Below, one piece after another: positions 23,552 through 54,760 of a stretch of 64,000 nt of DNA. This DNA is from Chitinophagaceae bacterium. Its GTDB lineage: Bacteria; Bacteroidota; Bacteroidia; Chitinophagales; Chitinophagaceae. The translations under genes were made by a program, and so were the position numbers. Numbering within the stretch: position 1 is the stretch's first letter; each line of letters starts with the position of its first letter. The stretch lies in contig JAGXRG010000057.1 of the NCBI GenBank assembly GCA_018335935.1, forward strand, positions 124,001-188,000, in the 5' to 3' direction. The notes beneath the pieces were generated by a model, which did no database searches, was not told the origin of the DNA, and saw only the letters and a program-made list of their open reading frames with translations.

Positions 23552-23957
23552 TGTTTTTTATTCTCACAGAATACGCTGAATGCACAGAAACTTCTGCGTT
23601 TTCTTCAATTTCTGCGAGATGTTTATTTTGTTTTCTTCACAAAGTTTTTATTCTCACAGAATACGCTAAAAATTCTGCGAATTCTGTTATTTCTGCGAGA
23701 TGTTTATTTTGTTTTCTTCACAAAGTTTTTTATTCTCACGGAATACGCTGAATGCACAGAAACTTCTGCGTTTTCTTCAATTTCTGCGAGATGTTTATTT
23801 TGTTTTCTTCACAATGGCTTTTTATTCTCACGGAATACGAAAAACGCTGAAAATTCTGCGTTTTCTGTTATTTCTGCGAGATATTTATTTTGTTTTCTTC
23901 ACAAAGTTTTTTATTCTCACGGAATACGCTGAATGCATAGAAGTTTCTGCGAGCTTC
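23552..23957. repeat. Tandem array of five roughly 82-92 bp repeats
   Basis: The landmark TTCTCAC recurs at 23561, 23651, 23733, 23825 and 23914. Each unit continues with GAATACG, a variable segment, TTTCTGCGAGATGTTTATTT and TGTTTTCTTCACAAAG. Variable segments alternate: copies 1 and 3 share one form (TGAATGCACAGAAACTTCTG, then a CGTTTTCTTCAA tract) and copies 2 and 4 another (AAAATTCTGCG, then TTCTGTTA). The higher-order period is therefore about 172-174 bp. Copy 5 is truncated. ORFs across it (23551-23993) only translate the repeat and are not credible genes. It fills the 415-base gap between two minus-strand genes. Confidence 0.9.
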
Positions 23958-41010: not shown

Positions 41011-41600
41011 AAATCCCTTTAGGGATGAAATATTGGTAGATAAGTGCCGTAGGCACGATATATTAAATCAAATCCTTGAAAATAAATTTTTCATCATAGT
41101 CAACCTCAAACTTTTGCAAGAAATCAACATATTCTTCTTTGAAGGTTTTAAGTTTATGATGTTGTTCTTGATTATTGATATATGCAATTACATCCTTTAA
41201 TTGTGATTTGCCATAAGAAAAAGCACCATAACCCTCCTGCCATTCAAATCTTCCTTGTGCAAATTGTTTTTGATTAATCCATTTCGAAGAGCTTGCTTTA
41301 ACATCTTGCATTAAATCAGCTATTGATTGAGTTGGTCTCATCCCAACTAAAATATGTACATGGTCTGCCATTCCATTTATAGCAATTAATTTATGTTTAT
41401 GATGCTGAATAATTCCTGTGATGTATTTGTATAATTCATCTTTCCAAGACGAATGAATTGATGCTGTTCTGAACTTAACTGCAAAAACAAATTGAATATG
41501 TATTTGTGTATAGGTGTTTGGCATATATAAAATATATCGTCCCTATGGGACTAAACTAAACGATAATTTTTTCTACCAATATTTAATCCCTAAGAGGATA
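41011..41600 (-). mobile_element. IS200/IS605-like single-gene element
   Basis: A single transposase gene is bracketed by short hairpins. The left side has ATCCCT-TT-AGGGAT (41013-41026) and GTGCC-GTA-GGCAC (41044-41056). The right side has GTCCC-TAT-GGGAC (41539-41551) and ATCC-N6-GGAT (41586-41599). TATTGGTAGA near the left end is matched by TCTACCAATA near the right, giving an imperfect overall inversion. Family members recognise subterminal hairpins and move as single strands without target duplication. The exact cleavage ends are not determined. Confidence 0.8.
41063..41524 (-). CDS. tnpA: IS200/IS605-family Y1 transposase (TnpA)
   Basis: The 153-residue HUH-type transposase has the metal-binding HVH motif at 55-57 in MADHVHILVG and the nucleophilic tyrosine Y115 in VIAYINNQEQHH. 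The intact reading frame and normal length (about 150 residues) suggest it is still active or recently was. REP-associated (RAYT) transposases are close relatives; the flanking palindromes fit either class. Confidence 0.92.
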   Translation of the reverse strand: MPNTYTQIHIQFVFAVKFRTASIHSSWKDELYKYITGIIQHHKHKLIAINGMADHVHILVGMRPTQSIADLMQDVKASSSKWINQKQFAQGRFEWQEGYGAFSYGKSQLKDVIAYINNQEQHHKLKTFKEEYVDFLQKFEVDYDEKFIFKDLI

Positions 41601-41780
41601 CAACAAACTAAAAAATAAAAATAAAGTGAAAATATGATATGTTCATGTAGAAATTTTTAAGGTTGTAATATAAATTTTGAATTTTATTTTTAGTTCCCCT
41701 CCTCGAATTTAATAATATTCAAAAGCCTAATTTGAAATAATTTTTACTTTAGTAAATTTTGTATGATTATAAAAATAGTA

Positions 41781-42002
41781 AATCCCATTAGGGATGCAAG
41801 ATTGGTAGCAATAAAATATAACAGACAAGTGCCATAGGCACGATATATTAAATCTAGTTCTTGAAAATAAATTTCTCATCATAGTAAACCTCAAACTGTA
41901 AAAACAAATTGAATGTGTAGTGTAATAATGAAAATATATCGTCCCTAAGGGACTAAACTAAATGATAATTTTACCTACCAATATTTTATCCCTAAAAGGA
42001 TA
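41781..42002 (-). mobile_element. Internally deleted (MITE-like) IS200 derivative
   Basis: This copy keeps both ends of the element: the left hairpins ATCCC-ATTA-GGGAT (41782-41795) and GTGCC-ATA-GGCAC (41829-41841), and the right hairpin GTCCC-TAA-GGGAC (41941-41953) plus the outer inverted segment. The middle of tnpA is missing: the sequence passes from CTCATCATAGTAAACCTCAA, near the gene's 3' end, straight to AAAAACAAATTGAA near its 5' end. About 370 bp are lost relative to the intact copy. It cannot code for a protein. Confidence 0.8.
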
Positions 42003-42177
42003 CAACAAACTAAAAAATAAAGTGAAAATATGAAATGTTCATATAGAAATTTTTAAGGTGGTAATATAAATTTTGAATTTTATTTTTAGTTCCCCTCCTC
42101 GAATGTAATAATATTCAAAAGCCTAATTTGAAATAATTTTTACTGTGGTAAATTTTTTATGATTATAAAAATAGCAA

Positions 42178-42305
42178 ATCCCATTAGGGATGCAAGATTG
42201 GTAGCAATAAAATATTTCAGACAAGTGCCATAGGCACGATATATTAAATCTAGTCTTTTAAAATAAACTTCTCATCATAGACAACCTCAAACTTTGTAAG
42301 AAGTC
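42178..42305 (-). mobile_element. Truncated IS200 left-end copy
   Basis: The left hairpins are present (42178-42191 and 42225-42237), followed by a remnant of the tnpA 3' end that runs a few bases further than in the neighbouring deletion derivative (CCTCAAACTTTGTAAGAAG). The right end is missing. About 150 bases separate it from recA. Confidence 0.75.
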
Positions 42306-52538: not shown

Positions 52539-52790
52539 TTATGCTTCTACTGCTCCTTCTAAAAGAATTGTAGTTTTATTGTTCATTACTTCTACAAAGC
52601 CCCCTTGAATTTGAAAGTTCTCTGCTTGTGTTTTTGACTTTAACACCTTTAAATTGCCTTTTCCAAGAGCACTTACCAAAGGAGCATGTTTATCTAAAAC
52701 TTCAAACAATCCACTTATTCCTGGAAGTTGTACTCCATAAACTTCGCCATCGAATAATTTTTTTTCTGGAGTAAGAATTTCTAATTTCAT
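52539..52790 (-). CDS. atpC: ATP synthase F1 subunit epsilon (short form)
   Basis: The 83-residue protein consists of the N-terminal beta-sandwich only (MKLEILTPEKKLFDGEVYGVQLPG, IQGGFVEVMNNKTTILLEGA). The C-terminal helical hairpin, which in E. coli inhibits ATP hydrolysis, is absent, as is common in Bacteroidota. It is normally just after atpD; here a four-helix-bundle gene is placed between them. Confidence 0.93.
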   Translation of the reverse strand: MKLEILTPEKKLFDGEVYGVQLPGISGLFEVLDKHAPLVSALGKGNLKVLKSKTQAENFQIQGGFVEVMNNKTTILLEGAVEA

Positions 52791-52813
52791 TATAAAGTAT
52801 TTAGTAGTTTGTA

Positions 52814-53176
52814 TTAAGTATTTAGAGTTTGTAATGATTTTTGCAACCCTGCTATCATTTTTTGAATTTCCTCTAATTGACTTAATGCTTGTTCTAATTT
52901 TATTTTTTCAAATGGATATAAGTTGTTGGCTATAATAAGCTGAGTTTCTAATTCATAACTAGAGCCTAGTGCTATACTTAGAAAATGTTTAAAATCATTC
53001 TTTGAAATTCTTCCAGCACCTTCAGCTATATTAGAAGAGATTGAAACAACACATCTTCTAATCTGACTTATTAGTCCAAATTTTTCTTCTGCTGGTAGTT
53101 CGTTTGTTAGATTATAAACCCCGGTTGCTAATTCAATCGATTTTTGCCAAACTAATAAATCTTTAAACTTATTCAT
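52814..53176 (-). CDS. Four-helix-bundle protein (S23/23S-IVS family)
   Basis: The 120-residue all-helical protein has the family pattern FKDLLVWQKSIELATGVYNL, the SISSNIAEGAGR motif (about 46-58) and FLSIALGSSYELETQL. Members are known as 23S rRNA intervening-sequence proteins or diversity-generating-element-associated avd relatives; the job of the stand-alone genes is unknown. It sits between atpD (53219) and atpC (52790) on the same strand, flanked by a 10-base inverted repeat (AGTAGTTTGT at 52803, ACAAACTACT at 53201). Confidence 0.92.
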   Translation of the reverse strand: MNKFKDLLVWQKSIELATGVYNLTNELPAEEKFGLISQIRRCVVSISSNIAEGAGRISKNDFKHFLSIALGSSYELETQLIIANNLYPFEKIKLEQALSQLEEIQKMIAGLQKSLQTLNT

Positions 53177-53218
53177 GACTCATCAAACTATTTACTAGCT
53201 ACAAACTACTTTGTACTA

Positions 53219-54760
<1,542 letters not shown>

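Follow-up and report, generated by a model that had tools for sequence, protein, structure and literature searches.

Which kind of element lies between atpD and atpC in a Chitinophagaceae bacterium, and how could it come to stand there? The locus is carried by contig JAGXRG010000057.1, in a stretch of 64,000 nucleotides (positions 124,001 to 188,000) that was analysed as a whole and is called the window below. An initial annotation had noticed that these two genes, as a rule adjacent, are separated here by a gene of the S23 type, and had read it as a small cassette which landed in an essential operon without breaking it. We find that this gene lies between two facing arrays of degenerate 7-nt units, and that inverted arrays of 7-nt (less often 8-nt) units recur around the S23 genes of Bacteroidota, Gammaproteobacteria, Cyanobacteria, CPR (Candidate Phyla Radiation), Planctomycetes and Firmicutes.

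The S23 gene and its flanking arrays

S23/IVP proteins are known from intervening sequences (IVSs) of 23S rRNA. The window gene belongs to this family over its full length and above both curated cut-offs: it matches PF05635 with 129.2 bits (cut-off 33.8; E = 8.9e-38; profile positions 1-105 of 106) and TIGR02436 with 124.4 bits (cut-off 24; positions 1-109 of 109). It is read in the same direction as atpD and atpC, that is, in sense orientation within the operon, which appears unbroken as far as can be judged from its sequence:

52814-53176, minus strand: S23/IVP four-helix-bundle gene, 120 aa (PF05635 129 bits, TIGR02436 124 bits)
53177-53217, minus strand: 5′ arm, degenerate repeats from the atpD stop to the S23 start, with an exact 11-nt core at 53200-53210
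52791-52833, minus strand: 3′ arm, degenerate 7-nt array, with an exact 11-nt core at 52803-52813
53219-54715, minus strand: atpD, upstream host gene, from its open reading frame (ORF) and translation
52539-52790, minus strand: atpC, downstream host gene (ATP-synt_DE_N 78.5 bits, ATP_synt_epsi match)

The atpD start was set at an internal ATG (the mechanical ORF extends to 54760). The 3′ arm overlaps the S23 stop and extends to the atpC start.

Two kinds of repeat had been described around the gene: a sequence, AGTAGTTTGT (52803-52812), with its inverted partner ACAAACTACT (53201-53210), and a repeated sequence at the atpC side. The inverted match is present and widens to 11 perfectly paired nucleotides (52803-52813 and 53200-53210), a length attained in 16 of 2000 flank shuffles. 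A 30-nt arm pair, 73% complementary, brackets the gene in a repeat search, and the arms are paired in the minimum free energy structure of the RNA as well as in the centroid structure. The repeated sequence, AAGTATTTAG, does occur twice, at 52795 and 52816, but it is not a separate feature: its spacing of 21 nt equals three 7-nt units, and Tandem Repeats Finder returned periods of 7 and 21 at the atpC side. Inverted and direct repeats are one structure, the facing inverted arrays of 7-nt units, which are best conserved at these repeats.

Structural relatives of the protein in the PDB are 2gsc (E 3e-19) and 2rld (E 2e-6), each with five chains in its entry, which we take to be pentamers. A weak similarity links it to Avd of diversity-generating retroelements (NF033474, E 1.4e-4), at 22.1 bits against a cut-off of 80; an ORF for a reverse transcriptase was not seen at 47-58 kb of the window (ORF list, by eye), and the locus does not have the make-up of such a retroelement. 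The long tandem repeats at 23553-23951 and 41529-42293 of the window (units of about 90/181 and 396 bases) are unrelated to the S23 gene.

Copies within the genome and the state of their sites

The initial annotation proposed a search for other copies with the same flanks. The source genome contains 18 PF05635 matches, compared with none in any of 14 control genomes. The kind of flank is indeed the same; the letters differ, most copies being flanked by arrays of a unit of their own (TAGTTTG, TTTGGAA, ATTATGA, CTAGTGG, GCAATAG and others, read by eye). In an arm-matching test on 17 of the copies (L018 dropped), the upstream arm scored on average 18.8 with the reverse complement of its own downstream arm and 12.0 with those of other copies. 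The own partner was the best of 17 in 14 of the 17 copies, and none of 100000 permutations reached the observed sum. Because own partners outscore the arms of other copies, arms are private to each copy and complementary within it; the two arms of the window copy are each other's best match among the 17. A transposon with constant terminal inverted repeats, of the insertion sequence type, was rejected, as each copy has another unit and arms match their own partner and not other copies; no transposase gene lies in the element.

Autocorrelation in both arms of the 17 copies peaks at 7, 14 and 21. In 464 kb of the source genome, 7-nt tandem periodicity stands out from other periods, with 16 period-7 clusters compared with 0-3 for periods 4-6, 8-11 and 13; the 15-18 clusters obtained at periods 12, 14 and 15 reflect codon periodicity and the double of 7. 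Sixteen of the 18 copies are co-directional with both neighbours. Some arrays run into reading frames. At L004 (own genome, G000, C48:22742-23053) the S23 frame stays open across the array and joins that of the next gene in a fused frame of 281 aa, and the same site in the related genome G002 (C138:6134-6439) has a similar long open frame of 307 aa. Period-7 arrays at L112:8379-8579 (own genome, C69) lie, apparently in frame, within a 332-aa open frame resembling a menaquinone-pathway gene (named by eye).

Both atp genes were readable in 49 genomes. The S23 gene intervenes in only four of them, the own genome included, which bears out their adjacency as the rule; presence of the gene at this site in all relatives, named beforehand as the contrary outcome, was not observed. 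Its frame is open in G000 and G022 and frameshifted in G002 and G037; G000 and G002 have orthologous copies, and a further named metagenome-assembled genome (MAG), L276, also carries S23 in this gap. An empty site, as had been looked for, was found in G003 of the same genus, whose gap of about 9-12 nt holds a remnant of the repeat. Ten other gaps, all in S23-bearing genomes, contain a hairpin without a gene (z -2.5 or lower), in most cases with arrays of short period (7-9), and none of nine S23-free genomes has a hairpin there. In the remaining 35 of the 49 genomes, the gap shows no gene and no significant hairpin.

The same comparison was made for 14 own-genome sites (all but L015-L018) in three congeners, occupied and empty junctions being compared by gap only, with approximate gap lengths taken from alignment ends. 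At least one congener junction is empty at nine of the 14 sites, and several sites are occupied in another congener. This pattern fits gain and loss and supports the small cassette initially proposed. At site L009, G003 carries a gene-less hairpin whose unit is unrelated. Presence and absence between congeners, together with the frameshifts in G002 and G037, show that the gene is dispensable at the atp site. Certain gaps are re-used across lineages: fadB-fadA in 24 rows, fadA-acyl-CoA dehydrogenase in eight and atp in five (host genes such as fadB and sdhA were named from our own reading of the neighbours' end sequences, not from database annotation).

Arrays and S23 genes across bacteria

Eighty named loci were taken from a scan of species genomes as the best matches to a profile built around the window protein; the sample therefore leans to the clade of that protein. 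In 79 of them, flank identity is 0.42-0.44 at lag 7 and about 0.29 at lags that are not multiples of 7. When the 17 own copies are added, 87 of 97 loci have an array in at least one arm, of period 7 (78) or of period 8 only (9), compared with 0-6 for periods 4-6 and 9-13. The median arm length is 4.4 units, and arm duplexes are stronger than those of swapped arms (mean -28.3 versus -18.3 kcal/mol, 96 loci). Both neighbours are co-directional at 73 of the 80 named loci, both are opposite at one, and at six they are not both callable; 73 of 74 callable loci compares with a chance expectation of 0.34 from the gene order of the source genome.

Two independent draws gave the same picture. In Gammaproteobacteria, S23 was found in 39 of 185 genomes; 24 of 29 loci have period-7 arrays (20 in both arms), against 0-2 for periods 5, 6, 8, 9 and 10. 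Matched arms score 22.6 versus 10.1 (28 loci), and Rfam finds no LSU rRNA at 20 of the 29 loci. In the cyanobacterial phylum (that of Gloeocapsopsis), S23 occurs in 95 of 194 genomes, and 28 of 29 loci carry an array: period 7 in 16, period 8 in 14, two loci having both and one neither. Of 30 loci from ten genomes of other groups, some of them re-fetched from the 80, 24 have period-7 arrays; Thiohalocapsa, Planctomycetaceae, a Ruminococcus, Kerfeldbacteria, Kaiserbacteria, Peregrinibacteria and SAR324 are among the groups represented.

The array period is clustered on the protein tree (13 changes versus 20.9 when shuffled), and, between different sites, unit similarity weakly tracks protein similarity (Mantel r 0.155, p 0.011). 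A period fixed for each protein lineage was rejected, the starred branches of the tree requiring at least six changes. We also rejected a five-fold ring in which each protomer is matched to one heptad: 4.4 units per arm is compatible with it without being diagnostic, and 8-nt arrays occur.

Several loci have features of their own. Six gammaproteobacterial S23 sites (L388, L391, L393, L394, L395 and L398) all lie just before a tRNA gene, called by Rfam in five and by eye at L398. The arms of L264 (by eye), L295 and L308 are reversed, with the C-rich strand upstream, as if the pair were flipped relative to the gene. L294, on a contig titled Limnohabitans sp. MAG20, is a Flavobacterium-like fadB-S23-fadA stretch, and the contig is probably a contaminant of that MAG.

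Do arrays follow the gene? Sampled stretches from nine genomes without PF05635 (653.5 kb) contain no period-7 cluster, whereas those from ten genomes with it (1089 kb) contain 33, in six of the ten. Four exact WWCTNAN units were found in 36 of 49 S23-bearing relatives versus none of 10 S23-free ones (Fisher 1.8e-5, without phylogenetic correction). The backward pattern, meant as a control, was itself enriched (27 of 49 versus 1 of 10), which weakens WWCTNAN as the single defining signal and indicates that arrays in general, not one motif, track S23. In 1.74 Mb of searched stretches, gene-less inverted array pairs are confined to S23-bearing genomes, and the array loops hold host genes or nothing, no other cargo genes being seen. 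Several array hairpins stand among apparent ribosomal-protein genes at L181:7338-8930 (G010).

Mechanism, rival explanations and meaning

By comparing genomes we establish, at the level of sequence, a unit of gene plus arms, copy-private complementarity, placement in co-directional gaps, presence and absence between congeners, constraint on the protein, and similarly built gene-less hairpins in S23-bearing genomes. To the reading that the window carries an IVS-type cassette, an S23 gene between complementary 7-nt (elsewhere 8-nt) arrays inserted into the atpD-atpC gap along the direction of transcription, we give about an even chance. In the operon transcript, the arms would pair to form a long hairpin whose loop contains the S23 frame, as in the IVS of 23S rRNA; the insert would thereby be tolerated, possibly excised by RNase III, and translation of atpD and atpC left unharmed. 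The S23 ring, a pentamer judging by its solved relatives, may bind the repeated units and so mark the element's own ends for spread or upkeep. Both arms may be maintained jointly, by template switching or conversion through the hairpin; shared upkeep would explain why units vary between copies yet arms stay complementary.

Several observations weigh against this IVS-type cassette. The fold of the whole unit in the window is not stabler than shuffles (z -0.62), and its arm duplex is ordinary, at the 41st percentile of swapped arms of 96 loci; the window copy alone is therefore a modest finding. No enzyme of movement was found, and S23 is the only gene between the arms. A Y1/RAYT transposase helping in trans was rejected, as Y1_Tnp counts in 59 genomes do not track those of S23: the domain is absent from G027 and G038 (eight and six S23 genes) and present in the S23-free G005, G018 and G028. 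The closest paralogues within the source genome are at most 58% identical. Two related proteins at different sites (L275/L280) have a dS of 1.42. By both values, spread is slow or old, and neither comparison gives a sign of recent movement. Finally, the array period is not constant but 7 or 8, co-directionality is weaker in Gammaproteobacteria (15 of 23 loci with both neighbours called), and the pattern search gives a score of zero for some genomes rich in S23 genes (G032 with 16 S23 genes, G016, G040 and G043).

A host regulatory device would account for part of the data: array hairpins in operon gaps would set the relative expression levels of adjacent subunits by way of RNA cleavage or stability, with S23 as the cognate RNA-binding regulator. 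Strict operon-gap placement in Bacteroidota agrees with it, as do the re-use of gaps between partner genes (atpD-atpC, sdhA-sdhB, odhB-lpd, carA-carB, fadB-fadA) and the gene-less hairpins in 10 of 49 atp gaps. So does strong purifying selection on the protein (dN/dS 0.04-0.24 in 17 comparisons), from which we conclude that S23 is kept for something. A regulator is, however, hard to reconcile with a gene that is absent from congeners at nine of 14 sites and frameshifted in G002 and G037, and with 35 of 49 gaps having neither gene nor hairpin; we consider it unlikely. An old operon gene inherited vertically and lost repeatedly, its repeats being incidental low-complexity sequence, is already disfavoured and highly improbable. 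Same-site proteins are partly clustered on the S23 tree (120 columns, poorly resolved), with 12 changes for fadBA versus 17.8 shuffled, and the atp-gap orthologue is common to G000 and G002. The five atp rows take five changes on this tree, which is compatible both with repeated insertion and with an old insertion followed by losses. Against vertical inheritance stand arms of period 7/8 that recur across phyla, empty junctions in congeners, and related proteins that occupy different sites: L275/L280, one before fadB and one at fadB-fadA, are 86% identical, and L260/L314, at fadB-fadA and sdhA-sdhB, 76%.

The arrays might also have come first, made by polymerase slippage and hairpin-mediated rearrangement, with S23 a passenger brought in by ordinary recombination that neither makes nor reads them. 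Many arrays lack an S23 gene, and heptamer excess is attributed to polymerase slippage in PMC4679880 and PMC4692102. Against this origin, S23-free relatives are nearly array-less (0 of 10, or 1 of 10 with the backward pattern, versus 36-37 of 49; no cluster in 653.5 kb versus 33 in 1089 kb), and array loops showed no other cargo genes; we regard it as rather doubtful. Equally tentative is a bolder extension of the IVS-type cassette, that S23 proteins themselves make and keep the heptamer or octamer arrays. The ring would read the units of one arm and, with host enzymes, cause the other arm, and gene-less hairpins, to be copied into new operon gaps. Such elements would form a mobile class that needs no transposase and renews its own copy-private ends; the 23S rRNA IVS would be a special case of it, and bacterial heptamer excess would be due to it.

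Repetitive extragenic palindromic (REP) elements with Y1 transposases, and miniature inverted-repeat transposable elements (MITEs), are likewise gene-less intergenic hairpins scattered in the genome; here, in contrast, there is no constant terminal sequence, and Y1_Tnp counts do not follow S23. The nearest known system is the 23S rRNA IVS of Coxiella burnetii. According to PMC4990558, it is a sporadically distributed unit of about 430 nt with an S23 frame, complementary ends and a 28-bp terminal stem at which RNase III cuts; IVSs have been proposed to be mobile, and they have been reported for decades without known function or way of moving. The window unit shares the S23 frame between complementary termini, the approximate size and the sporadic distribution, but lies in an operon gap and not inside a 23S rRNA gene, ends in copy-private arrays of 7/8-nt units, and encodes a protein on which purifying selection acts; the Coxiella frame, by contrast, is described there as decaying and its protein as not made. 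In kind, the cassette can be placed with IVS elements as a variant, and the mechanism decides if it also represents a mobile element of a new class.

Degenerate intergenic 7-nt tandem arrays, variable in unit and number, are described from Xanthomonas and Nostoc (published units GGGAATC and GGGGA(T/C)T; PMC4692102) and from Beggiatoaceae (TAACTGA; PMC4679880), and are over-represented in bacteria without an accepted cause (PMC4692102). The accessible parts of both papers mention neither S23 genes nor inverted pairs around a gene; the arrays described here form facing complementary pairs and co-occur with S23. No paper that connects S23 genes with heptamer arrays, or treats S23 operon-gap cassettes as a class, came up in a search that left most subscription journals and all bioRxiv preprints outside. 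An F. columnare table places such a gene beside guanylate kinase within a predicted phage region, and an F. psychrophilum biofilm study reports one S23 gene as down-regulated, hence expressed there.

The data join two old questions: in distant phyla, S23 genes that lie outside rRNA have inverted 7/8-nt arrays, and S23-free relatives are nearly array-less. The questions of the IVS and of the heptamers both become testable, with one protein, one RNA and knock-outs. The class adds polymorphic hairpin inserts to core operons, those of ATP synthase, succinate dehydrogenase and fatty-acid oxidation. Its recurrence in many bacterial groups hints that hairpin-ended inserts of this kind have gone unrecognised, and that they may be where the unexplained 7-base repeats in bacteria come from.
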